Assembly (NCBI GenBank): GCA_014189435.1
Contig: CP050293.1
Location: forward strand, 4,221,001-4,285,000
From: Mesorhizobium loti
GTDB taxonomy: Bacteria; Pseudomonadota; Alphaproteobacteria; Rhizobiales; Rhizobiaceae
Direction of reading: 5' to 3'
DNA: 64,000 nucleotides
In this document: piece by piece, positions 37,067-62,496 of the stretch
Layout: the number at the start of each line of letters is the position of its first letter
Numbering within the stretch: the first letter of the stretch is position 1
The notes under the pieces: generated by a model
Database searches by the model: none
The model's input: only the letters and a program-made list of their open reading frames with translations
Told to the model about the DNA's origin: nothing
Made by a program: the position numbers and the translations under genes

Positions 37067-38549
37067 GCCCGCCTCCGAACGACGCCTGCAGGATATTGCC
37101 GGTCTCGATGGCGTCGCCTTCCAGCCTGGTCGCGGCGCGACCCTCGCGGAAGACATAGATGCGCTCGCAATTGGTCAGCTCTTCGAGCTCGGTCGTGTAC
37201 CAGACGAAGGAGCGCCCGTTCTCGGCCTCGGCGCGGATCAGCCGGTAGACCTCCTGCTTGGTGCCGACATCGACGCCGCGCATCGGATCGTCGAGGAAGA
37301 TCACCTCAGCGTCTGACGCCAGCGCGCGGGCGAACAGCACCTTTTGCTGGTTGCCGCCCGACAGCGACAGGATCGGCGTGTCGATCGAAGGCGCCTTGAC
37401 CTTGAGCCGGTCCGACCAGGTCTCGGCCAGCTTGCGGGCGGCGGCGCTCGAAATCATGCCGCCCCGCGTCAGCGCATTCAGGCTGCGGATGGTCAGATTG
37501 TCGGCGATCGACCACAGCGAGAACACGCCTTCCGAGCCACGGTCGCCGGCGACATAGGCGCCCGGCAAGGCCTCGCGCTGCCGGCGCGCGGCATAAAACA
37601 TCGCGCGCAGCCGCTCGCGCTGGCCGTGGCCGTCGAGCCCGGCGAAGCCGATGATCTCGCCCTTGCCGACTTCGATGGTCAGATCGGTGGTGTCGCGGCC
37701 GGCATGCCGGATCACCGGAGCTTGCACCGAGGCCACCTTGCCGGCGGAGCGGTCGCGCGGCCGTTCGATGCTACCCATCAGCTCGACAAGTGCGGCGCGT
37801 GACAGGCCAGCGGTCGGCCGCTCGGCGACGACCTTGCCGTCGACCATGACGACGGTGCGGTCGCAGACGGCGAGGATCTCGTTCAGGCGATGGGTGATCA
37901 GGATGCAGGCGATGCCGCGCCCTGCCGCGCGGCGGATATGAGCGAGCAATTGTTCCGTCGCCTCGTGGCCGAGCGCCGAGGTCGGCTCGTCGAGAATGAC
38001 GGCGCGCAATTTGATGCCGGTCTGCGTGAAAGCGCGGGCGATCTCGACCATCTGTCGCCCGCCGATCGGCAGGTCGGCGACTTTCCTGTCGAGATCGATG
38101 CCGTGGCCAGGGAAGATCTCGTCCAGCACCGGGCCGATCACCTGGCGCGCGCGCCGGCGCCAGCCCAACCCGCGCAAAGGCCTATGCACGATGCGGGTAT
38201 TTTCCGCCGACGTCAGGTTGGCGCAGAGCGACAGTTCCTGGAAGATGCAGCGCAGTCCGGCCTGCTGGGCGCTGGCCGCACTCCATACGCCGATCTCACA
38301 CCCCCCGAGGCGAAAGCTGCCGCTGCTGCGCTCGACCGTGCCGGCAAGCACGTTCATCAGCGTCGACTTGCCAGCGCCATTGTGGCCGACGAGGCCGACG
38401 ACCTCGCCGGGTTTCAGATGAAAGTCCACGCCGCCCAGGGCATGCACGGCATCATAGTGCTTGCGGACATCGCGTACCTCGATGAGGAGGCTGTCGGCAT
38501 CGCCTGTCTCTGCTACGTCCTTCTTGGGCGGCGTGGGATCGTTCATCAT
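37059..38549 (-). CDS. Sugar ABC transporter ATPase (RbsA type, two nucleotide-binding domains)
   Basis: This 496-residue protein is of the ribose-importer ATPase class. The first domain has Walker A GHNGAGKST, Q-loop FQELSLCANLTS, signature-like LPIGGRQMVEIARA and Walker B VILDEPTSAL. The second has a degenerate Walker A (GLDGHGQRERL), as normal in this family, then LSGGNQQKVLFARAL and VIFLDDPMRGVDVGTK. It powers the two permeases that follow. The start (ATGATG) lies 13 bp after the binding-protein stop codon. Confidence 0.93.
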   Translation of the reverse strand: MMNDPTPPKKDVAETGDADSLLIEVRDVRKHYDAVHALGGVDFHLKPGEVVGLVGHNGAGKSTLMNVLAGTVERSSGSFRLGGCEIGVWSAASAQQAGLRCIFQELSLCANLTSAENTRIVHRPLRGLGWRRRARQVIGPVLDEIFPGHGIDLDRKVADLPIGGRQMVEIARAFTQTGIKLRAVILDEPTSALGHEATEQLLAHIRRAAGRGIACILITHRLNEILAVCDRTVVMVDGKVVAERPTAGLSRAALVELMGSIERPRDRSAGKVASVQAPVIRHAGRDTTDLTIEVGKGEIIGFAGLDGHGQRERLRAMFYAARRQREALPGAYVAGDRGSEGVFSLWSIADNLTIRSLNALTRGGMISSAAARKLAETWSDRLKVKAPSIDTPILSLSGGNQQKVLFARALASDAEVIFLDDPMRGVDVGTKQEVYRLIRAEAENGRSFVWYTTELEELTNCERIYVFREGRAATRLEGDAIETGNILQASFGGGHV

Positions 38550-38562
38550 TCAGCCATGCTGC

Positions 38563-39651
38563 TCATTTCGGCGCGGGAACGCCCGGCAGAGGCTCCTTCT
38601 TTACGTTGGCGTCGATGATCTTGGCCACCAGTTCCTGCGGATATTCGGCATTGACGACGCCGCCTTCGGGAACCGTCTTCAGCCAGGCGTCGAGGTCGGG
38701 CTGGTTGATCTGCAAGAGCGGCACCTCGACGAATTTCGGCACCTGCTTGCCCGCCAGGATCTGCTGCGCAACCCAGAACGCGACCTGCGAGACGCTTGGC
38801 GTCGCGCCCAGCGAGAAGGTCTGGTAGCCGCTGGCGTCATGCTCCTGCTTCCACAGTGCCAATTCGTCCTGGCGATTGCCCATGATGATGATCGGCAGCT
38901 GCCTGTTGGCGGCCTTGAATGCCTGCGCCGCGCCATAGCCATCGCCGCCCTGAGTCAGCACGGCATCGACCTGAGGCAGCGATGGCAGGATGCCCGACAC
39001 TTCCTTTTGCGCCACGGTCGCCGTCCACTGGCCATAGACCTCGCCGACAGCCTTATAGCTGGCGTGCGCCTTCATCGCCTTCTCGACGCCTTCATGCAGG
39101 CGCTTGTCGAAACCATCGCCAGCCATGCCGCGGATTTCGAGGATGTTGGCCGGCTTGTCGCCGAGCTTGCTGGAGATGAAGTCCAGTTCGGCCTTGGCAT
39201 AGGAATCGAGGTTGTAGTCGACGACATAGGCGCAAGGTTCGGTGACGCCGCTGGCGAAGGCGACGACAGTGATGCCGGCATTGCAGGCATCCTTGATGGC
39301 GCCGTTGAGTGCGGTGTCGGAGCCGGCAAGCACGATGATCGCGTCATAGCCCTGGAGGATCAAGTTCTCGATCTGGCTCGCCTGCTCGGTCACCGAATTG
39401 TTCGAGCTGACGACGGCGGTGGCGGCGACCTGCTTGTCGGCCACGGCCTTGGCGCCCATCTCCTCAAAACTCTTGATCATCACCTGGCGGAAGGAATTGC
39501 CGGCGTAGGAATTGCTGAAGGCGATCTTCTTGGCCGACGTGTCGCCCTTGGCGACGCCGTCATCGGCCCGCGCGCCTGTCGTGGCAAGGGTCGTGCAGGA
39601 AAGCAGCGCCGCGATAAGGAAGGCTCTGCCAGCTGTTCTGGTTCTGCTCAT
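38563..39651 (-). CDS. Sugar-type ABC transporter substrate-binding protein
   Basis: This 362-residue periplasmic binding protein (type 1 fold, RbsB-like) has a signal peptide ending TTGARA-DDG at about residue 29. The mature protein has KKIAFSNSYAGNSFRQVMIKSF and GYDAIIVLAGSDTALNGAIKDACNAGITVVAF. An EPCAYVVDYN segment is mirrored as EPCAYNVHID in the binding protein at 49400-50527, so the two are related. The ATG at 39651 has GGAGG upstream. The adjacent glucarate-dehydratase-like enzyme suggests a sugar or sugar-acid ligand. Confidence 0.92.
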   Translation of the reverse strand: MSRTRTAGRAFLIAALLSCTTLATTGARADDGVAKGDTSAKKIAFSNSYAGNSFRQVMIKSFEEMGAKAVADKQVAATAVVSSNNSVTEQASQIENLILQGYDAIIVLAGSDTALNGAIKDACNAGITVVAFASGVTEPCAYVVDYNLDSYAKAELDFISSKLGDKPANILEIRGMAGDGFDKRLHEGVEKAMKAHASYKAVGEVYGQWTATVAQKEVSGILPSLPQVDAVLTQGGDGYGAAQAFKAANRQLPIIIMGNRQDELALWKQEHDASGYQTFSLGATPSVSQVAFWVAQQILAGKQVPKFVEVPLLQINQPDLDAWLKTVPEGGVVNAEYPQELVAKIIDANVKKEPLPGVPAPK

Positions 39652-39712
39652 TTCGTTCTCCTCCTGTTGAAATTCATAGCGTCCTCCCGCCGACCATTTC
39701 GAACGAAAAATT

Positions 39713-40960
39713 TCACCCCAGCCCGAGATCGGGCACGGTGGCGTCTCGATGGTCGGCGAAATTCGTGTTGGGCAGCAGCGGATACCAGCCCGGACGGCCG
39801 GGATCGCGGTCGTAGGCATAGCCGCCCAGCGAGCGGTAGAGCTCGGCATAGGTTGCAAGCTTGTCGCGGTCGAGTTCGACACCGAGGCCCGGCGCCTCCG
39901 GCACCGCGATCGCACCGTTCTCGTAACGCATCTTGCCGCCGACGATGATGTCGTCGGCAAGATGGTGGTAGTGCGCATCGGCAGTGAAGACGAGGTTGGG
40001 CAGCACAGCGCCAAGATGCAGCATGGTGGCGAGCTGGATGCCGAGCTCACCAGAGGAATGCACCGCAATGCCGAGGCCGAACGTGTCGCAGATCTGCGCG
40101 GCGCGCACGCAGGCGCGGATGCCGCCCCAGAAGGTGGTATCGAGCAGGATAACGTCGACGGCAGGGTCGCGCACATTGGTGGCGAGCTGTTCGAAATCGA
40201 TGACGATGGTGTTGGTGGCCAGCGGGATGGAAAGCTTCTCGCGCAAGCGGCGCATGCCGGCCAGGCCCCAGGTCGGGTCCTCGAAATAGTCGTTCCTGAG
40301 GTCCGAGATGGCCTGGCCGAAACGCAGCGCCTCTTCGACCGACAGTGCCGCGTTCGGATCGTAGCGCAGCGTGTCGGCAGGGAATTCCGCGGCGAGCGCC
40401 CTGAAACACTCCAACTCATAGTCGGGATGAAACACACCGGCCTTGAGCTTGTGGGCGCCAAATCCGTGCTCGGCCTTGAGCGCGCGGGCATGGTCGAGCA
40501 ATTGCTCGATGGTGCGGACCTCGCCCTTGCCATTGCGGCGGTCGGCATAACGGAAGAACAGATAGGAGGCGAAGCCGATCCGGTCGCGCACGCGCCCGCC
40601 AAGCAATTGGTAAACCGGCACGCCGAGCTTCTTGCCGATGATGTCGAGGCAAGCGAATTCCAGCGCTGCGTGGAGCTGCGTGCGGTTGTTGTAGAGCGAT
40701 GCCGTCGGATTGCAGATGGCGTAGCGCATGCGGTTGAGATCGAAAGGGTCGTGGCCGACGAGGTAGGGCTTCAATCCGGCGAAGGCCAGTTCGGCGCCCG
40801 CGCCGCCGCCGCCCATTTCGCCGAGGCCGAGAATGCCTTCGTCAGTCTCGACCTCGACCACGGTGCGGACAAAGCGCCCCCAATGCGTGCCGTTGCTGTG
40901 CCGCAATGCTGCTTCCAGCGGAACGGTGACGGTGGTCGCCTTGATGTCCGTGATCTTCAT
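39713..40960 (-). CDS. Enolase superfamily, glucarate-dehydratase-like acid-sugar dehydratase
   Basis: This 415-residue protein has the glucarate-dehydratase subgroup residues in order: KxK ([10 protein letters not shown]), Asp in [10 protein letters not shown], Glu in YFEDPTWG, Asn in [11 protein letters not shown], Asp in [10 protein letters not shown] and His in [13 protein letters not shown]. The family dehydrates aldaric or aldonic acids to 2-keto-3-deoxy products. It is the first gene of the importer operon, 61 bp before the binding-protein gene. The ATG at 40960 has GGGAGAGGAG upstream. No aldolase or keto-acid dehydrogenase follows, so the rest of the pathway must be elsewhere. Confidence 0.88.
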
Positions 40961-42019: not shown

Positions 42020-42898
42020 TCAGCCGCCGAAGCGCGGTTCCGCGACGCCCTTGATGCCAAGGCCGGTGATGGCGAACAGGCTGCCGCGCAAGACGCCGTC
42101 GCCGGGAAAACGCGGCAGCGGCGGCTTGGCCATCGAGGTGACGTACAGGGTGTCGAGCTTCGGCCCGCCGAACATGACGCTGGTGATCTTCTTGACCGGC
42201 ATGTCGATGATGCGGTCGATGCTGCCGTCCGGCGCGTAGCGCACGAGCCTTCCGTCATAGACCAGCGCATTCCACAGATAGCCCTCGGCATCGACGGTCG
42301 AGCCGTCAGCCGCACCGCCCCGGCTGGTGTCGACGCGCACGAAGGTGCGCCGGTTGGTGGCGGCACCGGTGGCGATGTCGTAATCATAGGCCCAGATCTC
42401 GCCGGTCCAGGTGTCGGCGAAATAGAAGGTGCGGTCGTCAGGGCTCCAGCATGGACCGTTGGAGCAGATGATGCCGGAATCGATCCTGGTGACGGAGAAA
42501 TCCGGATCGAGCCTGTAGAGGCCGCCGGACGGCCCCTCTTCCATCGTATCCATGGAGCCGGCGAAGAAGCGGCCGCGCCGGTCGACCTTGCCGTCGTTGA
42601 GCCGGTTCATCGGCCGGTCCGGCTCCGGGTCGTGGATCAGCGTCACATCGCCGGTGACGAAATCGAGCAGATGGAAGCCGCGCTGCAGCGACACTACAGC
42701 GCCGCTGCCGTCCTTGCGCAGCGCCATCGAGCCGATCTTCATCGGCACGTCCCATGACCGGATCTCGCGCCCGTCGGCGGTCGCGCGAAACACGCGCCCG
42801 TCGAAACTGTCGATCCAGTACAGGCGTTCCTGTTCGACGTCCCACAGCGGTCCTTCGCCCAGCGTGGTCTTCACGTCCACAACGACTTCGATCTTCAT
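42020..42898 (-). CDS. SMP-30/gluconolactonase family sugar lactone hydrolase
   Basis: This 292-residue six-bladed beta-propeller has the metal-ligand Glu in LGEGPLWDVEQ, the Asn in PMNRLNDGKVDRRGRFFAGSMD, the Asn in CSNGPCWSPDDRTFYFADT and the Asp in GAADGSTVDAEGYLW. These are characteristic of calcium/zinc-dependent sugar lactonases such as regucalcin. It hydrolyses an aldonolactone to the acid. The start has GAGGAGG upstream. It is the last gene of the importer/BKACE operon, 47 bp after the cleavage-enzyme gene, where it would supply the open-chain acid. Confidence 0.9.
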   Translation of the reverse strand: MKIEVVVDVKTTLGEGPLWDVEQERLYWIDSFDGRVFRATADGREIRSWDVPMKIGSMALRKDGSGAVVSLQRGFHLLDFVTGDVTLIHDPEPDRPMNRLNDGKVDRRGRFFAGSMDTMEEGPSGGLYRLDPDFSVTRIDSGIICSNGPCWSPDDRTFYFADTWTGEIWAYDYDIATGAATNRRTFVRVDTSRGGAADGSTVDAEGYLWNALVYDGRLVRYAPDGSIDRIIDMPVKKITSVMFGGPKLDTLYVTSMAKPPLPRFPGDGVLRGSLFAITGLGIKGVAEPRFGG

Positions 42899-42945
42899 GC
42901 CGTCCTCCTCGGTATTGGCGTCACGCAGCGATTGGTCGGGCCGCG

Positions 42946-43908
42946 TCAGAAAGCGACCTTGTCGCCGCCCTTCAATGACAGTATCTCGCGCGCCTCGTCG
43001 GGCGTCGCCACCTCCATGCCGAGCCCCTCGATGATCTTGCGGGCCAGCAAGACCTGCTCGGCGTTCGATTTGGCAAGCTTGCCCTTGCCCGCCCACAGGC
43101 TGTCCTCCAGCCCGACGCGGATGTTGCCGCCAAGTGCCGCCGACTGCGCGGCGATGCGCAGCTGGCTGGCGCCGGCGCCCAGCACCGACCAGCGGAACTG
43201 GTCGCCGAACAGCCGGTCGGCGGTGCGCTTCATATGGGCGACGTCTTCTGGATGCGTGCCGATGCCGCCGAGCAGCCCGAACACCGACTGCACGAAGAAA
43301 GGCGGCTTCACCAGCCCGCGGTCGGCGAAGTGGGAAAGATTGTAGAGATGAGCGATGTCGTAGCACTCGAACTCGAAGCGCGTGCCATTGTCGTAGCAGG
43401 TCGCCAGAATGTACTCGATGTCCTTGAAGGAGTTGCGGAAGACGAGGTCGCGCGTCGCTTCCAGATGGGGCTTTTCCCAGTCGAACTTGAAGGCCTCGTA
43501 TTTGTCGGCCAGGTGATAGAGCCCGAAATTGATCGAACCCATATTGAGCGAGGCGACTTCCGGCTTGAACTGGGCGGCCGGGCGCACACGCTCCTCGACC
43601 TTCATGTAAGGGCTGCCGCCGGTGGTGATGTTGATGGCGGCGTTGGTGCCTTGCTTGACGCGTGGCAGGAAGCGGGCGAAGGCCTCCGGCGTCTGGTCGG
43701 GTTTGCCGGTTTCCGGGTCGCGGGCGTGCAGATGCAGGATCGCGGCGCCGGCTTCCGCAGCGGCGATCGCCTCCGAGGCGATCTGGTCCGGCGTGATCGG
43801 CAGATAGGGCGACATGGTCGGCGTGTGGATGGCGCCCGTCACCGCGCAGGTGATGATGATCTTGCCCCTAGTCTTCTGGGCGCCGGGCTTGCGGCTCGTT
43901 TCGCTCAT
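42946..43908 (-). CDS. Beta-keto acid cleavage enzyme (BKACE, DUF849 family)
   Basis: This 320-residue TIM-barrel protein of the 3-keto-5-aminohexanoate cleavage family has the zinc histidines in LHLHARD (H59, H61), the opening KIIITCAVTGAIHTP and a late VGLEDSLW carrying the conserved catalytic Glu. The family reacts a beta-keto acid with acetyl-CoA to give acetoacetate (or a substituted acetoacetate) and a new acyl-CoA. Here it overlaps (ATGA) an hydroxyacyl-CoA-dehydrogenase-type gene that could make the 3-keto acid. Known BKACE substrates include lysine-fermentation intermediates, dehydrocarnitine and 2-deoxy-3-keto-ribonate. The sugar importer and lactonase nearby favour a 2-deoxy-sugar acid, as inference. 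Confidence 0.9.
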   Translation of the reverse strand: MSETSRKPGAQKTRGKIIITCAVTGAIHTPTMSPYLPITPDQIASEAIAAAEAGAAILHLHARDPETGKPDQTPEAFARFLPRVKQGTNAAINITTGGSPYMKVEERVRPAAQFKPEVASLNMGSINFGLYHLADKYEAFKFDWEKPHLEATRDLVFRNSFKDIEYILATCYDNGTRFEFECYDIAHLYNLSHFADRGLVKPPFFVQSVFGLLGGIGTHPEDVAHMKRTADRLFGDQFRWSVLGAGASQLRIAAQSAALGGNIRVGLEDSLWAGKGKLAKSNAEQVLLARKIIEGLGMEVATPDEAREILSLKGGDKVAF

Positions 43909-44852
43909 TGTCCGTACTCCTGGTCCGATTTTTTCTTGTGCGCCGCCAGCGCCATCAGCCGGCGATCGCGCCACACCTGCCGCTCGCCGAGGTTTTCGCG
44001 CGGCAAGCGTTCGCGGCGGTCGGCTTCGACTGTTTTCATCACCTCGCCCGCCCAGTCGACCCGGCGCAGCATCTGCGGGAAAATGTTCGAATAGATCGAC
44101 TGATAGCGCTCGACATAGTCACGCACGCCGCCGGGCGCATTGAGGTCGATGGTCTCGAACGGACCCATGAACGACCAGCGCAGCGCCAGTCCGTCGCGGA
44201 TGCCGATATCGACATCCTCGACGCTGGCGTAGCCGTCGGCGACAAGCCGGAAAGCCTCCTCCAGCAATGCGCCTTGCAGGCGGTTCATGATGAAGCCGTC
44301 AAGCTCGCGCTTCATCACCAACGGTGCGTGACCGGCGTCGATGAGGAAGGCGCGGGTCCTTTCCAGCGTGTCAGCAGATGTCCAAGGCGCCGGCACGACC
44401 TCAGCCGCCGGAATGAGATAGGGCGGATTGATCGGATGCACGACCAGACAGCGGTGCCGTCCTTGCAGATGGTCGGTGAATTTGGACGGCAGCAGCGCCG
44501 AGGTGGAACTGGCGATGACTGTCTGCGGGTCGGCAAGACTGTCGATCAGGGAGAACACCTCCCGCTTCACCTCAAGGTTTTCGGGCGTGTTCTCCTGGAT
44601 ATGGACCGCACCAGCCAGCGCCTCCGCCAGCTCGGCGACAATGGCGATCCGGCCGAGCACGGTGTCGACGGACTGACCGCGCAACAGGTCGTTCTGAGCG
44701 AGGTCGCCAAGCACACCCGCAATGTAGTCGCGGGCGCCGCCTGTGGCAGTGGGCGACTGGTCCCACATCCGCACATCATGGCCGGCGCGGGCAAAGCTGA
44801 TCGCCCAGGCCCGCCCGATGAACCCGCTTCCGACGATCGCGACATTGGCCAT
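43905..44852 (-). CDS. 3-hydroxyacyl-CoA dehydrogenase family protein (L-gulonate 3-/carnitine dehydrogenase-like)
   Basis: This 315-residue NAD-dependent dehydrogenase has a Rossmann motif IVGSGFIGRAWAISFARAGHDV (8-13) and the HCDH active site, with His in VVHPINPPYLIPAAEVVP and FIMNRLQGALLEEAFRLV after it. It is of the lambda-crystallin/L-carnitine dehydrogenase type, which oxidises free 3-hydroxy acids rather than CoA esters. It overlaps the BKACE gene by four bases, so it probably makes the beta-keto acid that BKACE cleaves. The ATG at 44852 is preferred to a longer start at 44960. Confidence 0.88.
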   Translation of the reverse strand: MANVAIVGSGFIGRAWAISFARAGHDVRMWDQSPTATGGARDYIAGVLGDLAQNDLLRGQSVDTVLGRIAIVAELAEALAGAVHIQENTPENLEVKREVFSLIDSLADPQTVIASSTSALLPSKFTDHLQGRHRCLVVHPINPPYLIPAAEVVPAPWTSADTLERTRAFLIDAGHAPLVMKRELDGFIMNRLQGALLEEAFRLVADGYASVEDVDIGIRDGLALRWSFMGPFETIDLNAPGGVRDYVERYQSIYSNIFPQMLRRVDWAGEVMKTVEADRRERLPRENLGERQVWRDRRLMALAAHKKKSDQEYGQ

Positions 44853-44862
44853 GGATTGTTCC

Positions 44863-45669
44863 TCAAAGTGTTTCGACGTTGCCGTCGACGCCGAGCGACT
44901 GGCCGGAAATGTTGATGCCCGCATCGGAGAGCAGGAAGGCGACCATCGCGGCGACATCATAGGGGCTGGTCATGCGGCGCAGCGAGATGTTCTGCAGATA
45001 GCGATCCGTCATTTCTTCGTGGCTGATGCCGACCTGCTTGGCGCGCGCCGAGATGACACCTTCGATGCGCGGTCCCTCGATGATGCCGGGCAGGATGGCG
45101 TTGACCCTGATGCCATGCGGCCCGAGCTCCTTGGCGAGACTCTGCGTGAAACCGATGACGCCGAACTTGGCCGCCGAATAGGGCGTGCGGAAGGCGTAGC
45201 CATGGCGGCCGGCGGCCGACGACATCGAGACGATCGAGCCGCCGCCTGCTGCCTTGATCAGCGGCACGGCACGCCGGGCGCACAGGAACTGGCCGGTCAG
45301 GCAGATGTCGATGCAGCGCCGCCAGTCGGCCGGATCGATCTCGTCGACACCGCCGGTCGGCCCGGCAATGCCGGCATTGTTGATCAGCGCATCGAGCCCG
45401 CCGAGTTCTTTCTCGACCGCCTCGAACAGCCGGTCGACGTCATCGTCGCGCGAAACATCCGCCTTCACAGCGGCGACCAAATCGATCTTGCCGGGAGCAG
45501 CGGCCAGCGCCTCGTCGGAAACGTCGCAGACGACGATGCGGGCGCCGAGCCGCGACAGCGTGTCGGCTATGGCAAAACCGATGCCGCCAGCGCCTGCCGT
45601 CACCAGCACGCGCTGGCCTTTCAGCCCAGTCAGAAATTCGTCCGCCGAAACCGGCGCCCTTGTGCTCAT
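44863..45669 (-). CDS. Short-chain dehydrogenase/reductase
   Basis: This 268-residue classical SDR has TAGAGGIG for NAD(P) binding (24-31), NNAG, and the Ser-Tyr-Lys set in SMSSAAGRHGYAFRTPYSAAK. The C-terminal GQSLGVDGNVETL is typical of sugar and polyol dehydrogenases. It lies 13 bp after the fused permease and 10 bp before the hydroxyacid dehydrogenase. Oxidation of the imported sugar to a lactone (then opened by the SMP-30 protein), or of a ring hydroxyl, is the likely role. The order of the two dehydrogenases in the pathway is not set by sequence. Confidence 0.9.
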   Translation of the reverse strand: MSTRAPVSADEFLTGLKGQRVLVTAGAGGIGFAIADTLSRLGARIVVCDVSDEALAAAPGKIDLVAAVKADVSRDDDVDRLFEAVEKELGGLDALINNAGIAGPTGGVDEIDPADWRRCIDICLTGQFLCARRAVPLIKAAGGGSIVSMSSAAGRHGYAFRTPYSAAKFGVIGFTQSLAKELGPHGIRVNAILPGIIEGPRIEGVISARAKQVGISHEEMTDRYLQNISLRRMTSPYDVAAMVAFLLSDAGINISGQSLGVDGNVETL

Positions 45670-45682
45670 GGTCCTGTCCTTC

Positions 45683-47767
45683 TCATTGCAGCCGCCGTTC
45701 ACGCAGCGCCATGACGGCGCCCAGAACGACCAGCCCGTAAAGAATTGCCCTCATGGCGTAGGGAAGCGTGGTGCCGGCCAGCAGCATCTGCAATGCCGTC
45801 AGCAACAACACGCCGCCGAGCATGCCGAGATAGTGGCCACGGCCGCCGGTGATCAGGGCACCGCCGACGACCACCACGGCGATCGACGGCAAGAGATAGT
45901 CGTCGCCCATGCCGAGGCTCGCCTGTCCCGAAAAGCCGGTCAGCATGATGCCGACAACTGCAGCGCAGACGGCCGAGAGCATGTAGACCAGGATCAGCGT
46001 GCGCTCGACGCCGATGCCCGACAGTCGCGCGGCGCGCAGCCCGTTGCCGATACCGTAGACCCGGCGCCCGAACGGCGTGCGCCCCAGCAGCAGCACCGCC
46101 GCCGCGACAAAGACGACCATCAGCAGCACGATCGGTGTCAGCAGGCCGGCGAGCCTGGCCGTCATGACCCAGCGCAGCATCGGTGAGGAAAACCCGGCGG
46201 GTGTTCCCTGCGAGTAGAGCAGCGCGCAGCCTTGCAGGATGCCGTTGGTGGCGAGTGTCATGACGATCGGCGAGATGCCGAGATAGACGATGCCGAAACC
46301 ATTGGCGAAGCCGATGGCGCAGGCCATCACCAGCACGACTGGTAAGGCGTAGAAAAGGGCAGCATCGGAGCCGTTGACCATGCCGGCCAGGATGATGCCG
46401 GAGATGCCGATCGTCCACGGCACGGAGAGATCGAGGCCGCCCGTCAGAATGACGGTTCCCTGCCCTAGCGCCAGGACGGCGAGGAAGGACGACAGCACCA
46501 GCAGCGAATTCCAGTAGCCCGGATTGAGGATGGCGCGGCCGAGCCAGATCTGCGTGACGACCACGATGACCAGCAAGCAGACATAGGCCGGCAGCGCGTA
46601 GCGCAGCGCCTCCGCGTTGCGCAGATGGAAAGCTGGGCGCGGCGATGCCGGACTGCGTTGGCCAGGCGATGGTTCGGTGATCTTGAGACGCCGGTCCACG
46701 CGCTCGAGCTGCGCGGGCAATATGCCGGCGCGCCAGGCGGCAAGCCGGGCGCGCGCGGCGCGCAGTTGCACGGCAAGCACCGATGCGTGGGAAATGGAGC
46801 CGGCAAGCGCCGCCAGCACCAGAATGGTGCCCTCGGCGATGGTCGCATAATAGGCCGACACATTGAGCACCAGCAGGATGTTCACCACGATCATCAGGAT
46901 AAAGGCGCCGAAGACAGAGCCCACCGGGCCGCCCTGCCCGCCGCCGAGACGCGTGCCACCGACGACGACCGCCGCGAACATCGACAAAAGCAGCGGATTG
47001 CCGACCAGCGGATCGCCGCTGCCGGTCTGGGCGCTGATGAACACGCCGGCAAGGCCATAGCAGCCGCCGGCGATCACATAGACGGCAAAGCGGACCAGCA
47101 CGACATTGATGCCGACGGCAAGAGCCGACTCCGCATCGCTGCCGACCGCATAAAGTGCCGTGCCGAAGCGGGTTCCCTTCAGCCAGAACCAGGCGAGCAG
47201 GACGACGCCGATCACCACCAGCGGCATCGGCAGCCAGCCGGCGATCGCGTCGCCGAGATAGAAGGTACCGAGATCGGGCGACACGAAGCCACCAGGCTTG
47301 TCCATCACCAGCAGCGTCACGCCTTGCAGGATGAACATGGTGGACAGCGTCACCACGATGGGCTGCATGCGCAGCACCGCGATGAAGAAGCCGTTGAAGG
47401 CGCCCACGGCCATGCCGACGCCGATGCCGACGGCAGTCCACAAAATGATGCTGGCGCCTGGCGCCATCGGGTCCATGCTCGATGCCAGCACGGCATTGAC
47501 CAGCGATATCACCGCGCCGGCGGACAGGTCGAAGCCGCCCGACAGGATCACGATGGTCTGGCCGATCGCCGCGAGCGCGGAGGTCGCGCCGCCGCTCGAC
47601 AGGAACGACACATCGAAATAGGTCAGTGGCCCGGCGCTGATCCAGTCGACGATGAAAAGCAGGATCGCAAGGACAGCCGCGGCGATCAGTGCGCCGCGAT
47701 TGCGCATCAGCGCGCGCCGCAGACCGAAGCCACTGGGAACAGGGGATGAGGCTGCTGCGCGGCTCAT
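45683..47767 (-). CDS. Fused tandem sugar ABC transporter permease (two RbsC-type domains in one protein)
   Basis: This 694-residue membrane protein contains two complete BPD_transp_2 (RbsC-like) domains. The first spans about residues 20-305 (QTIVILSGGFDLSAGAVISLV, AVGSDAESALAVGINVVLVRFAVYV, VVVGGTRLGGGQGGPVGSVFG). The second spans about 370-690 (GTVILTGGLDLSVPWTIGISG, GIGNGLRAARLSGIGVERTLILVYM, VVVVGGALITGGRGHYLGMLGG). A hydrophilic Arg/Pro-rich linker joins them. The ATG at 47767 overlaps the ATPase stop (ATGA). The reading frame is uninterrupted, so this is a true fusion equivalent to the two separate permeases at 35160-37066. Longer upstream starts lie inside the ATPase gene. Confidence 0.93.
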   Translation of the reverse strand: MSRAAASSPVPSGFGLRRALMRNRGALIAAAVLAILLFIVDWISAGPLTYFDVSFLSSGGATSALAAIGQTIVILSGGFDLSAGAVISLVNAVLASSMDPMAPGASIILWTAVGIGVGMAVGAFNGFFIAVLRMQPIVVTLSTMFILQGVTLLVMDKPGGFVSPDLGTFYLGDAIAGWLPMPLVVIGVVLLAWFWLKGTRFGTALYAVGSDAESALAVGINVVLVRFAVYVIAGGCYGLAGVFISAQTGSGDPLVGNPLLLSMFAAVVVGGTRLGGGQGGPVGSVFGAFILMIVVNILLVLNVSAYYATIAEGTILVLAALAGSISHASVLAVQLRAARARLAAWRAGILPAQLERVDRRLKITEPSPGQRSPASPRPAFHLRNAEALRYALPAYVCLLVIVVVTQIWLGRAILNPGYWNSLLVLSSFLAVLALGQGTVILTGGLDLSVPWTIGISGIILAGMVNGSDAALFYALPVVLVMACAIGFANGFGIVYLGISPIVMTLATNGILQGCALLYSQGTPAGFSSPMLRWVMTARLAGLLTPIVLLMVVFVAAAVLLLGRTPFGRRVYGIGNGLRAARLSGIGVERTLILVYMLSAVCAAVVGIMLTGFSGQASLGMGDDYLLPSIAVVVVGGALITGGRGHYLGMLGGVLLLTALQMLLAGTTLPYAMRAILYGLVVLGAVMALRERRLQ

Positions 47768-49296
47768 GCGGCGGCTTCCCCGGCATGACCAAGGGCCGGG
47801 CGCATGATGGCAGGCTCGGTGATGGCGTCGCCTTCGAGTTCGGCCGCGATACGCCCGTCGTAGAGAACCAGCACCCGGTCGCATTGGTGGACGAGTTCGG
47901 GAATCTCCGTCGAGTGCAGCAGGATCGAACCGCCCGAAGCCACGTAGTTTCGCATCATCACATAAAGCTCGTGCTTGGTGCCGACATCGATGCCTCGGGT
48001 GGGATCGAACAACAGCAGGATGCGGCTCTGCGCCACCAGCCATTTGGCGATGGCGATCTTCTGCTGATTGCCGCCGGAAAACGCACCGGCCCGCGTCCAC
48101 AGCGCGCGGCGGTCGACCTCGACAGTAGCGAATGCCGCCTCGACGGAGCGGGTTTCGGCTTGCGCGTCGACAAGGCCGAGGCGGGTGAAGCGCGATATCA
48201 CGGGAAGCGTGGCGTTCTGGCTGCCCGACAGTTTCAGGAACAGCCCTTCGGATTTGCGATCCTCCGGCACCAGGCCGATCGCCATGTTGGGCAGCAAGGC
48301 ATCGGCGGGCGAACCGAGCCAAACCTTGCGGCCATCGACGAGGATGTGGCCGCGGATGATTTCGGCCATGCCGAAGCAGGCCAGGAACAGATCCTGCTGG
48401 CCCATGCCCTGCAATCCGGCAACGCCGAGGATCTCGCCTTTGCGAAGGTCGAAGCCGGCGCCGTCGAGCTTGCGCCCGACCTTGAGGTCGCGCACGCCTA
48501 GAACCGGCGGCCCGAAGGCCTGGGCGCCGTCTGGCTTGGGCGGGAAGGTCTGCTCGATGCTGCGGCCGATGATCTTTTCGATGACGTCGCCATCCGAGAC
48601 GTCGGCAACCGGCGCGGTAACGATGTGGCGGCCGTTCCTCAGGATCGTCAGCGTGTCGCAGAAGGCGCGGACCTCGCGCATGCGGTGGGTGATGAAGACG
48701 ATGGTGGTGCCTGCTGCCTTCAGCCTGGCGATGATGTCGCCCAGCCAGTCGACGTCGCGGCCGGCGAGCGTCGATGTCGGCTCGTCGAGCAGCAGGATGC
48801 GCGGCTTGCGATAGACGGCCCGCGCGATCTCGATCTTCTGGCGCACCGAAAGCTCGAGCTCGCTCACCTCGGCGTCGAGATCGACGGAAAAACCGAGATC
48901 GTCGATGTGGCGGCGGACAGCCTTGCGGGCGGCACTGCGCCGGATCAGGCCGGAGACGCCCACGGGGGCATAAGGCAGCAGCATGTTGTCGAGCACGGAG
49001 AGATCGCGCACCAGGGTCATCTCCTGGAACGCCGTCTGCACGCCCAGCGCGTGTGCGGCGCGCGGTGCGCCGTAGGCGATCTCCTTGCCGAAGACACGGA
49101 CATGCCCCTCGCTCGGCCGGACCAGCCCGGACAGCAGCTTCACCAGCGTCGACTTGCCGGCTCCGTTTTCACCCAGCAGTGCATGGACGCTGCCAGGCGC
49201 GATCGCGAACGACACGCCGTCCAGTGCGACGGTCGGGCCGAACGCCTTGCTGATGCCGTCGATCTCGATGGCGGGAAGCGCGGTATGTTCTGTCAT
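47764..49296 (-). CDS. Sugar ABC transporter ATPase (RbsA type)
   Basis: This 510-residue double ATPase has a first domain with Walker A GENGAGKST, Q-loop FQEMTLVRDLSV, ELSVRQKIEIARA and Walker B LLLDEPTSTLAG. Its second domain has a degenerate Walker A (GLQGMGQQDLF), EDRKSEGLFLKLS, FSGGNQQKIAIAKWL and LLLFDPTRGIDVGTK. It powers the fused permease. The ATG at 49296 opens directly onto the ATPase fold; a GTG at 49332 would add 12 residues. A 103-bp gap with alternative hairpins separates it from the binding-protein gene. Confidence 0.93.
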   Translation of the reverse strand: MTEHTALPAIEIDGISKAFGPTVALDGVSFAIAPGSVHALLGENGAGKSTLVKLLSGLVRPSEGHVRVFGKEIAYGAPRAAHALGVQTAFQEMTLVRDLSVLDNMLLPYAPVGVSGLIRRSAARKAVRRHIDDLGFSVDLDAEVSELELSVRQKIEIARAVYRKPRILLLDEPTSTLAGRDVDWLGDIIARLKAAGTTIVFITHRMREVRAFCDTLTILRNGRHIVTAPVADVSDGDVIEKIIGRSIEQTFPPKPDGAQAFGPPVLGVRDLKVGRKLDGAGFDLRKGEILGVAGLQGMGQQDLFLACFGMAEIIRGHILVDGRKVWLGSPADALLPNMAIGLVPEDRKSEGLFLKLSGSQNATLPVISRFTRLGLVDAQAETRSVEAAFATVEVDRRALWTRAGAFSGGNQQKIAIAKWLVAQSRILLLFDPTRGIDVGTKHELYVMMRNYVASGGSILLHSTEIPELVHQCDRVLVLYDGRIAAELEGDAITEPAIMRPALGHAGEAAA

Positions 49297-49328
49297 GTCC
49301 TCGATCGCCGGGCTGCACACTTTGGGCG

Positions 49329-49381
49329 CCACGCATTAGCGCGGATCGACGATGCGTGGACAAGACGTCAGCGCATCGTCG
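49329..49381 (-). promoter_or_regulatory. Mutually exclusive hairpins between binding-protein and ATPase genes
   Basis: A perfect 10-bp stem can form between 49347-49356 (CGACGATGCG) and 49372-49381 (CGCATCGTCG). A perfect 8-bp stem can form between 49329-49336 (CCACGCAT) and 49352-49359 (ATGCGTGG). They share bases 49352-49356, so only one can form at a time. There is no T-run. The structures may set the ratio of binding-protein to ATPase/permease mRNA. Confidence 0.5.
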
Positions 49382-49399
49382 CGATTTGGCTTGAGAGGC

Positions 49400-50527
49400 T
49401 CAGTTCTCCGGCTGTCCAACGAGGGCAGCGGCGAGGCCGACCTCGGGTGTCTGGTCCGAGAAGATCGAGGCAAACCAGCCGGGATTGGAGACCAGCGACG
49501 GCTTGAAGGCGTTGCAGCCTGCCTTCATCTCCGCCCATGTGCCTTCGTCGCACAGCTTGATCGTCTCATTGGTGACGACCGGCAGCGGCAGGATGGTGGT
49601 CTTCGGCACGTCCTTGCCTTCGATCGCCTCGACGGCGAGCTTCAGCGCCAGCGCGCCGGAATAGGGCGGGGACGCATAGGAAATGCGTTGCGCGCCCGCC
49701 GGTGCATAGGGCGGCGCCGCGCCTTCGACTTCGGTCCCCTCCGGCAGCATCTGGATGCGGCCGCCATTGGAGCCTTCGCCGGCGCAAGGCAGGAGTTCGC
49801 TGGTCTTCTTGCCGGCCTCGAGCTGCATCGAGTTGGCGGTGAAGCAGCCGACCTGCATCCACAGCCCGTTGATGTCGTCCCAATTGCGGGTGGCCAGGAT
49901 CTTCGAAAGCTCGGTTCGGGCGACCGCCTGGCTCCACATGCCAACAGCCTCGCCGACGATCTTGATGTCAGGATACTTGGCGAAGACTTCCTTGGCGGCC
50001 TTTGTCCGTTGATCATCGACGGATGTTCCCGGAACACCCGTGATGGCGATGATGTTGCCCTTGCCATTGAGCTTCTTGACCAGCCATTCGGCGGTCACCC
50101 TGCCCGCTTCCAGCTGGTCGATGTGGACGTTGTAGGCACAGGGCTCGGTGATCTCGGCGTCGTAGGCAAAGACCTTCACACCCTTGTCGCAGGCATTCTT
50201 GACGACCTGATTGAGCGCGGTCGGCGAGATCGGATACACGACGATCGCCTCGGCGCCGCTTTGCACCATGGCGTTGATCTGCTGAATCTGGCGTTGCGCG
50301 TTGGGGCCGGCGACCTGGACCTGCAGGTCGACCTTGTCGGCCAGGCTCTTGTGCGCGGCCATGGCCTTGACCATGTTGGCCGCCTCCGCCTGCCAGTCAT
50401 TGCCGATGTAGCTCATGCTGAGAAAAATCTTGTGCTTCTCGGCCGCCTGCGCGGCCGACAGCCCAAGGGCGCATACAGCCATGCCGGCCAGCAGCGCGAG
50501 CCGCCGGACTTTCAATCCGATACCCAT
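49400..50527 (-). CDS. Sugar-type ABC transporter substrate-binding protein
   Basis: This 375-residue type 1 periplasmic binding protein has a signal peptide cleaved after about residue 28 (SAAQA-AEKHK). The mature start KIFLSMSYIGNDWQAEAANMVKAMA and EPCAYNVHIDQLEAGRVTAEW show its relation to the binding protein at 38563-39651. It also has an extended C-terminal region with extra cysteines (KLCDEGTWAEMKAGCNAF) not present in that relative. It is the first gene of the BKACE operon. The ligand may be a deoxy-sugar or its acid, inferred from the enzymes downstream. Confidence 0.92.
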   Translation of the reverse strand: MGIGLKVRRLALLAGMAVCALGLSAAQAAEKHKIFLSMSYIGNDWQAEAANMVKAMAAHKSLADKVDLQVQVAGPNAQRQIQQINAMVQSGAEAIVVYPISPTALNQVVKNACDKGVKVFAYDAEITEPCAYNVHIDQLEAGRVTAEWLVKKLNGKGNIIAITGVPGTSVDDQRTKAAKEVFAKYPDIKIVGEAVGMWSQAVARTELSKILATRNWDDINGLWMQVGCFTANSMQLEAGKKTSELLPCAGEGSNGGRIQMLPEGTEVEGAAPPYAPAGAQRISYASPPYSGALALKLAVEAIEGKDVPKTTILPLPVVTNETIKLCDEGTWAEMKAGCNAFKPSLVSNPGWFASIFSDQTPEVGLAAALVGQPEN

Positions 50528-50616
50528 ATGAAACTCCTCCCGATCCGAACGACCGAATGCCTCCCAAGGGCACGAACGTAACCCTTGTCATTCGATGCCG
50601 GCGACCGTAACATGAT

Positions 50617-50653
50617 TTGATCAAAGATCAATGATGAAATCGCTTGATATCAA
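50617..50653. promoter_or_regulatory. Two palindromes in the divergent GntR/importer control region
   Basis: TTGATCAAAGATCAA (50617-50631) is a 6-3-6 palindrome and TTGATATCAA (50644-50653) is perfectly self-complementary. Both share TTGAT half-sites. They lie about 90-125 bp upstream of the binding-protein start on the side facing the divergent GntR gene, as expected for its operators. The rest of the 323-bp gap is filled by the repeat element at 50710-50808. Confidence 0.55.
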
Positions 50654-50850: not shown

Positions 50851-51531
50851 ATGGCTGGGTCGGCGTACAGGAAGCCGGGGGTCGAGATCACACCCCTGTC
50901 CAGGGAAACCCTGCAGGACAGGGTCTATCGCCATGTCACCGAACTGATCCTCGACGGCTCCATCGTGCCGGGCGAGATGGTCACGGTTCAGAGCCTTGCC
51001 GACGCTTTTGGCGTCAGCCCGATGCCGGTCAGGGAAGCGTTGCGGCGCCTGACGGCGGCCAACGCGCTGATGGTGGTTTCAGGCCGGTCGATCGGCATTC
51101 CGGCATTAAGCCGCGCACGCCTCATCGACCTCAGGAATGTCCGGTTCGAGATCGAGGCGATCGCGGCCGCATGGGCGGCGGAGCGTATGGACGACCAGGC
51201 CGTGGCGCAGTTGCGCCAGCATCTGGATGCGCTCGAACAGGCCAATGCCGCCGGCGACGTCAAATCCTACCTGCGCGCCAACTACGCCTTTCATTTCTCG
51301 ATCTATCGGGCGGCCGGTTCCGAGAACATGCTCAACATCATCGAGAACCTGTGGCTGCAGATCAGCCCCTACTTCAACATGCTGCACGATTCGGGAAACT
51401 ACTCGACCGCCAACGAACACCATCAGGAGATGTTCGCGGCATTGAGAAACCGGGACGCGGAGGCCGTCAGGGCCGCGGTCCGCGCTGACATCGACGCCGC
51501 TTTCGACGTGCTGGTCGATCTTTTGAAGTAG
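50851..51531 (+). CDS. GntR family transcriptional regulator, FCD subfamily
   Basis: This 226-residue regulator has a winged HTH (LQDRVYRHVTELILDGSIVPGEMVTVQSLADAFGVSPMPVREALRRLT, about 21-68). The helical FCD domain has NYAFHFSIYRAAGSENM and NEHHQEMFAALRNRDAEAV carrying the ligand histidines. It is divergent from the fused-permease/BKACE operon and probably controls it in response to an acid intermediate. Its start codon lacks a well-spaced ribosome-binding site (GGGAG abuts the ATG), so expression may be weak. Confidence 0.9.
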   Translation: MAGSAYRKPGVEITPLSRETLQDRVYRHVTELILDGSIVPGEMVTVQSLADAFGVSPMPVREALRRLTAANALMVVSGRSIGIPALSRARLIDLRNVRFEIEAIAAAWAAERMDDQAVAQLRQHLDALEQANAAGDVKSYLRANYAFHFSIYRAAGSENMLNIIENLWLQISPYFNMLHDSGNYSTANEHHQEMFAALRNRDAEAVRAAVRADIDAAFDVLVDLLK

Positions 51532-51845: not shown

Positions 51846-52673
51846 ATGACAACGATTGCGCTGTTCGGTGCCGGCGGAAAAATGGGCTACCGCCTATCGA
51901 CCAATTTTCGCGGATCGCCCTACACGATACGCCATGTCGAGGTCAGCGATGCCGGTCGCGAACGGCTGAAGACCGGACTGGGTTTCGATACGGTCAGTGC
52001 CGACGAGGCGCTCAAGGGCGCCGATGTGGTGATCCTGGCGGTTCCGGACACGCATATCGGCAAGGTGGCGACCAGCATCGAGAGCAAGCTGGCGCCGGGC
52101 ACGATGGTGGTGGTGCTCGACGCGGCGGCACCTTTCGCCGGCCATCTGCCGAAGCGGCCGGACCTCACCTATTTCGTCACCCATCCCTGCCATCCGCCGA
52201 TCTTCAATGACGAGACCGACATGGCTGCCAAGAAGGACTATTTCGGCGGCGTCAAGGCCAAGCAGCATATGGTCAGCGCGCTGATGCAGGGACCGGAGGA
52301 GGACTACGCCAAGGGCGAGGCGATCGCGAAAATCATCTGGGCGCCGGTCATGCGCTCGCACCGCGTCACCGTCGACCAGATGGCGCTGCTGGAGCCCGGT
52401 CTGTCGGAGACGGTGTGCGCCTCGCTGCTGGTTATCATGAAGGAAGCTGTCGACGAAGTCGTGGCACGCGGCGTCGACAAGCAGGCGGCGCTCGACTTCC
52501 TGCTCGGCCATATGAACGTGCTCGGCGCCGTCATCTTCGGCGAGACCAAGGGCGTCTTCTCGGACGCCTGCAACAAGGCGATCGAATTCGGCAAGCCGGT
52601 GCTGATGCGTGACGACTGGAAACGCGTGTTCGAGCCGGAAGAGATCGCCGCCAGCATTCAGCGCATCACCTGA
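51846..52673 (+). CDS. apnO: Probable D-apionate oxidoisomerase (phosphogluconate-dehydrogenase-like)
   Basis: This 275-residue NAD-binding protein has an N-terminal GAGGKMG motif (8-14), VVILAVPDTHIGKVA, a distinctive FVTHPCHPPIFNDE segment and an all-helical C-terminal half. It belongs to the 6-phosphogluconate-dehydrogenase-like group that includes ApnO, which converts D-apionate to 3-oxo-isoapionate. The name depends mainly on the companion genes: a DUF1537 kinase, a RuBisCO-like protein and Gfo/Idh/MocA and lactonase-like genes match the described D-apiose/D-apionate route. It has its own operator and promoter region. Confidence 0.75.
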   Translation: MTTIALFGAGGKMGYRLSTNFRGSPYTIRHVEVSDAGRERLKTGLGFDTVSADEALKGADVVILAVPDTHIGKVATSIESKLAPGTMVVVLDAAAPFAGHLPKRPDLTYFVTHPCHPPIFNDETDMAAKKDYFGGVKAKQHMVSALMQGPEEDYAKGEAIAKIIWAPVMRSHRVTVDQMALLEPGLSETVCASLLVIMKEAVDEVVARGVDKQAALDFLLGHMNVLGAVIFGETKGVFSDACNKAIEFGKPVLMRDDWKRVFEPEEIAASIQRIT

Positions 52674-52688
52674 GGGAGGCAGACGCCT

Positions 52689-52912
52689 TTCCCTTCTCCT
52701 CTTGTGGGAGAAGGTGGATTGGCGCGTGGCGCCAAGACGGATGCGGGGTTCCGGAGGAAACACGGCATCAAAAAACCAAACGATTCTAGATGCTTATGTT
52801 CTCGACGTAGCGATCCGTCCAGCGTCCCTTATCCGACCGGGCTTCGCTCGGGCACCCCGGGGCGAGCCACCGGTCTCGCCCGCCCTTCGGGTCCCACAAG
52901 GGGAGAAGGGAA
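52689..52912. repeat. MITE-like repeat with 21-bp terminal inverted repeats
   Basis: The left end TTCCCTTCTCCTCTTGTGGG and the right end, read on the other strand, match at 20 of 21 positions over the terminal 21 bases. The 224-bp interior has no coding frame of note and holds smaller palindromes such as TTGGCGCGTGGCGCCAA. It lies between apnO and the apiose importer genes. No transposase is present. GC-rich elements with similar ends are widespread in Mesorhizobium intergenic DNA. Confidence 0.65.
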
Positions 52913-52943
52913 GACCTCATCAGGTACATATCATCTGAATTTG

Positions 52944-52963
52944 TGGTTGACTCATCATACCAG
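52944..52963. promoter_or_regulatory. Candidate NanR-like operator upstream of the importer operon
   Basis: TGGT-N11-ACCA symmetry ends in ATCATACCAG (52954-52963), the second copy of the ATYATACCAG motif. It lies 216 bp before the binding-protein start at 53179 and 31 bp after the MITE-like repeat. The remaining leader (52964-53178) shows no other clear signal except GGGAGGAC before the ATG. Confidence 0.5.
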
Positions 52964-53022
52964 TTGGCTTAGCTGTTCACTGGCTCGGATCAACAGGTTT
53001 TCGCAGGGAGCTCGAAGCCTGA

Positions 53023-54120
<1,098 letters not shown>

Positions 54121-54138
54121 GCCGGCGTGATTTGAACA

Positions 54139-54177
54139 GCGAGGGGTGAATTTCGGTTCGCCCCTCGTCGCCTTTTT
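54139..54177 (+). terminator. Terminator-like hairpin after the binding-protein gene
   Basis: GCGAGGGG and CCCCTCGTCGC bracket a loop, forming at least a seven-base perfect stem (CGAGGGG/CCCCTCG). A run of five T starts five bases after the stem (54173-54177). It lies 19 bases past the binding-protein stop codon and before the DUF2291, ATPase and permease genes. It is probably a partial terminator that favours binding-protein expression. Confidence 0.65.
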
Positions 54178-54213
54178 CCGTGGGCCGACCACGATGCTGA
54201 ACGACAGGCCACC

Positions 54214-54858
54214 ATGCTGAACACCAAGCCGAACTGGCCGATCCTTGCCGTGATGGTCGGCATCAGCCTGACCGCCTGCAAGATCCTGCCGACGAAATCG
54301 GGAGGTGGCGACAACGCTCCCGCCTTCAATCCGGACAAGATGGTCGAGGAGATTTGGGCGGCGAAGGTCGTGCCCTATCTCCAGCAGAAAGCCGGACCGT
54401 TTCCGGAGGTTCACAGCCTGGCGACGACCGATGCAGCGGCTGCCGGCGCCAAATACGGCAATCCAAACAAGCAGGCGAACTCGCCGTGGACTTTCGCGGT
54501 TCGCCTGGAAGGCAAGATCGTCGCGGCCAACACGCAGTCTCGCGCGGCGACGATCGACGTCGATGTCGACGGCGATGGCAAGGCCGATGCGCGGGTGCAG
54601 ATCGGACCGGCGGTGCGCGGCACCGCGCTGCGCGACAGCCTGGACTTCATCCAGTTCAACGACTTCACCAACCAGATCGACTTCGCCCAGTTCGGCAAGG
54701 CGTTCAACAGCTACGCCGACAAGACGGTGCTGTCCAAGCTGCCGCGCGAGACACTGGAGGGCCACAGCGCCAAGGTGCTGGGCGCCTATACGCTGGGCAG
54801 CGGCCAGGACCTGCCGCTGGTGACGCCGGCGGAGGCCGAGATCGGGCCGAAGCCATGA
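54214..54858 (+). CDS. DUF2291 family periplasmic lipoprotein
   Basis: This 214-residue protein has an N-terminal lipobox (ISLTAC, Cys22) after one hydrophobic segment, so it is a lipoprotein. The mature part FNPDKMVEEIWAAKVVPYLQQKAG and DSLDFIQFNDFTNQIDFAQFGKAFNSYAD matches DUF2291. This family is found next to ribose-type importers in Rhizobiales and has no known function. It overlaps the ATPase gene by four bases (ATGA). A helper role in uptake is suggested only by this association. Confidence 0.85.
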   Translation: MLNTKPNWPILAVMVGISLTACKILPTKSGGGDNAPAFNPDKMVEEIWAAKVVPYLQQKAGPFPEVHSLATTDAAAAGAKYGNPNKQANSPWTFAVRLEGKIVAANTQSRAATIDVDVDGDGKADARVQIGPAVRGTALRDSLDFIQFNDFTNQIDFAQFGKAFNSYADKTVLSKLPRETLEGHSAKVLGAYTLGSGQDLPLVTPAEAEIGPKP

Positions 54859-57468: not shown

Positions 57469-57470
57469 CC

Positions 57471-60340: not shown

Positions 60341-60342
60341 AG

Positions 60343-61056: not shown

Positions 61057-61178
61057 CGTCGCGAATCACTCCCTTGACCCGGCCCTATCTAACACTGCCG
61101 CCACATTTCCTGGAAATTGCCATCTGACGACCTGCCTAAAACTTCCAGCCGGATATGCCTTGCAATACTTATGTACTC

Positions 61179-61203
61179 ATTATACCAGATTTAGACCACT
61201 GGT
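61179..61203. promoter_or_regulatory. Candidate NanR-like operator upstream of the RuBisCO-like gene
   Basis: The third copy of ATTATACCAG (61179-61188) begins a perfect ACCAG-N10-CTGGT inverted repeat (61184-61203). Its motif ends 54 bases before the start codon at 61242, almost the same distance as at apnO. It lies in the divergent region shared with the regulator gene, so it could also serve autoregulation. Confidence 0.6.
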
Positions 61204-61241
61204 GAACCTTTTTCGAACGCCTCGGCCTGAGACAGCAGACC

Positions 61242-62492: not shown

Positions 62493-62496
62493 AGCC

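Follow-up and report, generated by a model that had tools for sequence, protein, structure and literature searches.

Seven genes on the minus strand of Mesorhizobium loti (positions 42020-50527 of a 64,000-nucleotide stretch of contig CP050293.1, hereafter the window, in a genome of 8.33 Mb and 3 contigs) probably constitute a version of the oxidative 2-deoxyribonate pathway with an importer of its own, for which the sequences make 2-deoxypentonates, or their lactones, the likeliest substrates with fairly good confidence. The genes encode, in order, a binding protein, a double ATPase, a fused permease, a short-chain dehydrogenase/reductase (SDR), a lambda-crystallin-type free 3-hydroxyacid dehydrogenase (HADH), a beta-keto acid cleavage enzyme (BKACE; DUF849, PF05853) and an SMP-30 lactonase.

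The sequences show which genes are present, that they are conserved and linked across genomes, that residues are intact and to which clades the proteins belong; from this, we infer the reactions, the substrate and the order of the steps as follows. The importer, of CUT2 type, would bring in a 2-deoxypentonate or the corresponding lactone, or possibly the free sugar. SMP-30 would open the lactone, and the free acid would be oxidised by the SDR at its C3 hydroxyl. BKACE would then split the 3-keto acid, passing its two-carbon end to acetyl-CoA and so releasing acetoacetate and glyceryl-CoA. Enzymes with genes elsewhere in the genome would hydrolyse the glyceryl-CoA and phosphorylate the glycerate. 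HADH would supply the same BKACE as an additional 3-hydroxyacid dehydrogenase, and the simplest division of labour would be that it handles the other configuration at C3. Lactone opening, C3 oxidation and acetyl-CoA-dependent cleavage of a 2-deoxy aldonate had been proposed in the initial annotation, and are supported here; so is the kinship that it noted with a described deoxyribonate route, combined with an importer of its own.

The SDR and the lactonase

The published deoxyribonate cluster of P. simiae consists of genes for a GntR regulator, an SDR, a BKACE, a lactonase and two major facilitator superfamily (MFS) transporters, that of Paraburkholderia of genes for an AraC regulator, a BKACE, a transporter, a beta-hydroxyacyl-CoA dehydrogenase and an SDR, and that of Klebsiella (K. 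michiganensis), in an order derived from the published locus numbers, of genes for a CoA-synthetase, a CoA-transferase, a dehydrogenase, a thiolase, an MFS transporter, a lactonase, a second MFS transporter and a glycerate kinase (PMC6365646). Related clusters, numbered here with the prefix L, were matched to these forms by gene order and content. L138 and L139 have the gene order of the Paraburkholderia form, L154 reads SDR-BKACE-SMP30-MFS-MFS beside a GntR gene, with MFS proteins 66% and 57% identical to those of Klebsiella, and L165, from K. pneumoniae, has the gene set of the published Klebsiella cluster.

The window SDR (44863..45669, minus strand; Pfam SDR), a predicted 2-deoxy-aldonate (deoxyribonate) 3-dehydrogenase, shares 49-55% identity with the SDRs of L154, L138, L139 and L104, and falls in one clade with all four (support 88/93). 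The tree, which gave long-branch warnings, held 44 rows, thinned from 73 plus five others, and its clade of 40 rows, drawn open, includes one of the five added rows, an SDR encoded beside the HADH and BKACE of L088. T105, R161 and R201 do not vary among the 66 rows retained from 73 (short rows were left out, and close relatives are numerous), and none of the three residues occurs in five outgroup SDRs. Since R161 lies three residues before the catalytic tyrosine, a role in carboxylate binding is plausible. With a Burkholderia SDR as query, six of 123 candidates in the window genome were scored, and the window SDR alone matched at E<=1e-60; 25 of 398 sampled genomes had a match. Among 20 regions fetched round such SDRs, 14 carry a nearby BKACE at least 56% identical, in four no BKACE was seen, one (L153) has a BKACE of only 26% identity, and one (L155) had no genes called. 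Judging by sequence, oxidation of deoxyribonate is a likelier role for the window SDR than oxidation of a sugar at C1.

The lactonase points to the same clusters. The SMP-30 protein (42020..42898, minus strand; SGL/SMP-30, 281 bits), a predicted deoxyribonolactonase, is 68% identical over 292 amino acids to the lactonase of L165 and 70% identical to that of L154. When the L165 lactonase was used as query, seven matches were found in the window genome, the other six being 39% identical at most.

Operon organization and conservation

All seven open reading frames (ORFs) are uninterrupted and start with ATG, with intergenic gaps of 103, 56, 13, 10, -4 and 47 bp along the operon. The initial annotation of a minus-strand operon with an RbsABC importer, SDR, HADH, BKACE and SMP-30 was confirmed by ORFs, Pfam and conserved co-occurrence; the seven-gene set stood, while two gene bounds were revised, SMP-30 being encoded by 42020-42898 instead of a longer ORF and the permease by one double-domain gene.

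All CUT2 subunits were recognized by Pfam, namely a 375-amino-acid RbsB-like solute-binding protein (SBP; 49400..50527; Peripla_BP_4), an RbsA-like double ATP-binding protein (47764..49296; two ABC_tran stretches) and the fused double permease (about 45683..47767; two BPD_transp_2 stretches), all on the minus strand. The permease has 694 or 674 residues depending on its start; the start at 47767, picked by its presumed overlap with the RbsA gene, would turn the 56-bp gap into a 4-bp overlap. A single permease gene of about 2.1 kb is also present in operons of Agrobacterium, Rhizobium and Caballeronia. The SBP has a sugar-binding fold, and its matches include ribose- and xylose-type proteins. 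The MFS transporters of the P. simiae form are not in the operon, and because the CUT2 importer takes their place, the operon is a variant and not a plain member of the pathway of Price et al. An open-access literature search found no paper on such an importer-equipped form, and the term "ABC transporter" is absent from PMC6365646.

A scan for relatives of BKACE yielded 594 confirmed stretches, of which the best 80 were kept and their partner genes called by tblastn; the 21 best named loci are from Mesorhizobium, with BKACE 95-98% identical. An SBP gene was present in 40 of the 80 loci, accompanied by SDR and SMP-30 in 40/40 and by HADH in 38/40, so that the grouping reflects more than chance. 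Many of these are close Mesorhizobium relatives, and others come from Phyllobacterium, Aureimonas, Jiella, Bordetella, Roseovarius and Vreelandella. Within the genus, the SBP was detected at E<=1e-120 in 50 of 146 Mesorhizobium genomes. Other loci carry parts of the set: SDR and HADH without SBP or SMP-30 in 11 of the 80 (10 with full flanks, plus L048), HADH without SDR in L043 and L044 (both full flanks), SDR without HADH in L077 (full flanks) and L085 (short flanks), SDR, HADH and SMP-30 in L013 and L040, HADH and SMP-30 in L006 (these three with short flanks), and SMP-30 as sole partner in L066. The deoxyribonate pathway would thereby be extended to a conserved importer-equipped form in Mesorhizobium and other alpha-, beta- and gammaproteobacteria. 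In many importer cassettes (L027, L028, L031 and others), a further SMP-30 gene lies in tandem, its product sharing about 53-57% identity with the window protein, which suggests two lactone forms.

Two dehydrogenases for one cleavage enzyme

HADH (43905..44852, minus strand; Pfam 3HCDH) scores 493.7 bits against NCBIfam PRK06129 (cut-off 347) and retains S116/S118, H139, E151 and N190, which we take to be functional residues; other copies in the genome are 35% identical at most. The solved structures nearest to its family profile are lambda-crystallins (339 and 328 bits, the next at 171), and lambda-crystallin is L-gulonate 3-dehydrogenase (PMC12435205), a likeness that points to a free 3-hydroxy sugar acid as substrate instead of a CoA ester.

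The same two enzyme superfamilies would also fit a pathway in which HADH is a carnitine dehydrogenase and BKACE cleaves dehydrocarnitine. We regard this as very improbable, as HADH reaches 186 and 166 bits against the carnitine dehydrogenase models (cut-offs 592 and 414), and neither a lactonase nor a CUT2 importer fits carnitine. Moreover, a separate cluster of the same genome, L107, encodes a dehydrogenase that attains the carnitine 3-dehydrogenase cut-off (597.9 vs 592), beside a BKACE 31% identical to that of the window. Of the "lambda-crystallin/carnitine" type first assigned to HADH, therefore, the lambda-crystallin part stands and the carnitine part is disfavoured. Likewise, the different dehydrogenase set claimed for the operon holds for HADH, the extra enzyme and the true novelty of the operon, and does not hold for the SDR, which lies in the clade of deoxyribonate-type clusters and keeps the clade arginines.

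The presence of both dehydrogenases in nearly all importer cassettes, a CUT2 importer whose ribose-binding-type fold suits a neutral sugar, and the oxidation of free sugar acids at C3 by relatives of HADH (PMC12435205) would agree with a serial scheme, in which C1 of an imported 2-deoxy sugar is oxidised by the SDR, lactone opening by SMP-30 follows, and HADH acts at C3 ahead of BKACE. We consider this scheme unlikely, given that HADH is present in some clusters of the SDR clade and missing from others while the invariant arginines are the same in both, that the importer cassettes L029 (where SDR adjoins BKACE) and L065 lack HADH, and that the SDR also accompanies tripartite ATP-independent periplasmic (TRAP) importers in L092, L101 and L140, where no SMP-30 was seen. 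In addition, no deoxyribose activity of the P. simiae SDR was observed according to PMC6365646. The C1 oxidation that the initial annotation had assigned to the SDR is thus unsupported, and the imported compound may itself be an acid or a lactone.

In the SDR tree, clusters that have HADH are mixed with clusters that lack it, and operons with SDR alone or HADH alone exist; we therefore read the two enzymes as parallel entries to one BKACE, and the distribution suggests that their steps are parallel and not serial. SDRs of this sort take a D-like 3-hydroxyl and HADH enzymes an L-like one, a stereochemical split that may apply here. Tentatively, SDR and HADH could be stereo-complementary, converging on one beta-keto acid and one BKACE, so that both damage products would be salvaged and the hydrolase linked to related operons (see below) would act on glyceryl-CoA. 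The SDR would then take 2-deoxy-D-erythro-pentonate (2-deoxyribonate), and HADH its C3 epimer 2-deoxy-D-threo-pentonate or L-series relatives. Deoxyribonate is formed from 2-keto-3-deoxygluconate and peroxide, as cited by Price et al. (PMC6365646); by analogy, 2-keto-3-deoxygalactonate and peroxide would give the threo acid. Once known, the compound that HADH oxidises would indicate which 2-deoxy acids are encountered by bacteria in soil.

HADH relatives (43-52% identical) were also seen in L095, L096, L097, L098 and L099, with no BKACE within 8 kb. CUT2-type importers lie beside four of these five, with metallo-beta-lactamase-type (MBL) lactonases and HisD-type or SDR dehydrogenases variously present.

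BKACE and the predicted product

BKACE (42946..43908, minus strand), encoded in the same operon as the SDR with HADH between them, scores 357.5 bits in Pfam (cut-off 24.8). The initial annotation had reported intact zinc and catalytic residues, and all five, H59, H61, E181, R264 and E268, are indeed present; E181 and R264 align with E171 and R254 of BKACE15, and H59, H61 and E268 are presumably the zinc-ligand positions.

Near related operons, genes of the glycerate kinase family occur in three contexts. In L086, L087 and L045, the kinase is followed by a protein of the 3-hydroxyisobutyryl-CoA-hydrolase family (PRK05617-type; 426 and 445 bits in L086 and L087, cut-off 274). In L140, the kinase (TIGR00045, 459 bits, cut-off 168) follows TRAP-SDR-HADH-BKACE after two intervening genes, and in L043 a kinase with Pfam DUF4147 and MOFRL accompanies HADH-BKACE-SMP30 and another SDR; both are of a different type from the kinases of L086, L087 and L045. 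This linkage argues for a three-carbon product. A different substrate, such as 2-deoxygluconate or 3,4-dihydroxybutyrate (as acid or lactone), would yield glycolyl-CoA or a C4 acyl-CoA; the BKACE clade is found in several unrelated settings and the SBP reaches no named NCBIfam cut-off, which would agree with such a substrate, but the kinase linkage and the closeness of SMP-30 to the lactonase of a deoxyribonate cluster make it rather improbable.

The glyceryl-CoA hydrolase was called unknown in PMC9007349, and the hydroxyisobutyryl-CoA-hydrolase paralogue of L086, L087 and L045 is a sequence-based candidate for this missing enzyme. Elsewhere in the window genome, the nearest glycerate kinase is 67% identical, and the nearest CoA hydrolase is 41% identical to that of L086. 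The L043 operon (L043:9018-13733) is compact and has a different ABC importer and no SDR of the clade. In L087 (14434-18471), LarA, LarC, LarE-like and LarB nickel-racemase genes lie between the cassette and the glycerate kinase; the LarA-type protein is below the LarA cut-off (340 of 460), and these genes possibly serve L-glycerate.

Several points weigh against the deoxyribonate assignment. NCBIfam labels the window BKACE a 3,5-dioxohexanoate enzyme (543.6 bits, cut-off 430), a name that it also gives to the BKACEs of L154 and L104, and in 21 of the 80 loci, nine of them with full and 12 with short flanks, no SDR, HADH, SMP-30 or SBP was found nearby, so that BKACE alone is neither diagnostic of a substrate nor defining for a pathway. 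The position oxidised by the SDR could not be determined by Price et al. (PMC6365646), and L154, matched to the published clusters by order and content, is probably not from Pseudomonas. The fold of the SBP suits a neutral sugar, yet a C1 dehydrogenase for a neutral sugar is not evident. As to the product, glycerate kinase and CoA hydrolase genes are not in the window operon, the kinases of L086 and L087 (258 and 257 of 550) and of L043 (163 of 550) are below the glycerate 2-kinase equivalog cut-offs, and the rhizobial kinase-hydrolase operons of L086, L087 and L045, being one clade, count as one event. Finally, three DeoC-family genes in the genome make an ordinary deoxyribose-phosphate route possible.

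Regulatory region

A GntR/FCD regulator gene (50851..51531, plus strand), divergent from the operon as its counterparts are in related loci, is the predicted regulator. Between the two lies the predicted operator TTTGATCAAA (50616..50625, no strand assigned), present once in the window; 4 of 100 window shuffles contain a copy. It was detected in 32 of 47 equivalent intergenic regions, many from close Mesorhizobium relatives, against a background expectation near zero. The palindrome proposed for P. simiae by Price et al. (PMC6365646), GTGATCAC, was found in six of the 47 regions (0.27 expected), those of L154, L047, L049, L050, L051 and L082, and the TGATCA core was absent from seven. The extended sites of the window, TTGATCTTTGATCAAA, and of L154, TTGATCTGTGATCACA, are alike, with TTGATCT(T/G)TGATCA in common.

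Neighbouring gene clusters

A D-apiose/apionate-type cluster adjoins the operon (51846-63831, plus strand), with an ApnL lactonase (950 bits, cut-off 750), OiaX (784, cut-off 700), an OiaK-like kinase under its cut-off (468 of 700), a Gfo/Idh oxidoreductase, a CUT2-type importer and a PGDH_C protein. On the other side, 33440-40960 holds another importer set, CUT2-like in look, with a Zn-dependent dehydrogenase, an enolase-superfamily protein far under named cut-offs (169 of 829 for the glucarate dehydratase model) and an arylformamidase-like protein (92 of 223).

Comparison with known systems

The oxidative pathway of P. simiae, Paraburkholderia bryophila and Burkholderia phytofirmans (PMC6365646) shares SDR and BKACE with the window operon, and its P. 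simiae form also the lactonase, the GntR regulator and a TGATCA-core operator; cleavage of a 3-keto-2-deoxypentonate would be common to both. The window operon differs from that pathway in that a CUT2 importer whose permease is fused replaces the MFS transporters, a lambda-crystallin-type dehydrogenase is added, and the operon contains no molybdenum deoxyribose dehydrogenase. The Klebsiella cluster resembles the operon in its lactonase and in glycerate as the likewise proposed product, but is proposed to make the CoA ester of the acid and to use a thiolase, and has neither BKACE nor ABC importer. L-gulonate 3-dehydrogenase, or lambda-crystallin, the nearest solved relative of HADH, would share with it free sugar-acid chemistry; the partner of HADH in the operon is BKACE and not a decarboxylase. 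Clusters of carnitine dehydrogenase and BKACE combine the same two superfamilies, whereas the window HADH scores below the carnitine cut-offs and its operon has a lactonase, an SDR and a sugar-type importer instead.

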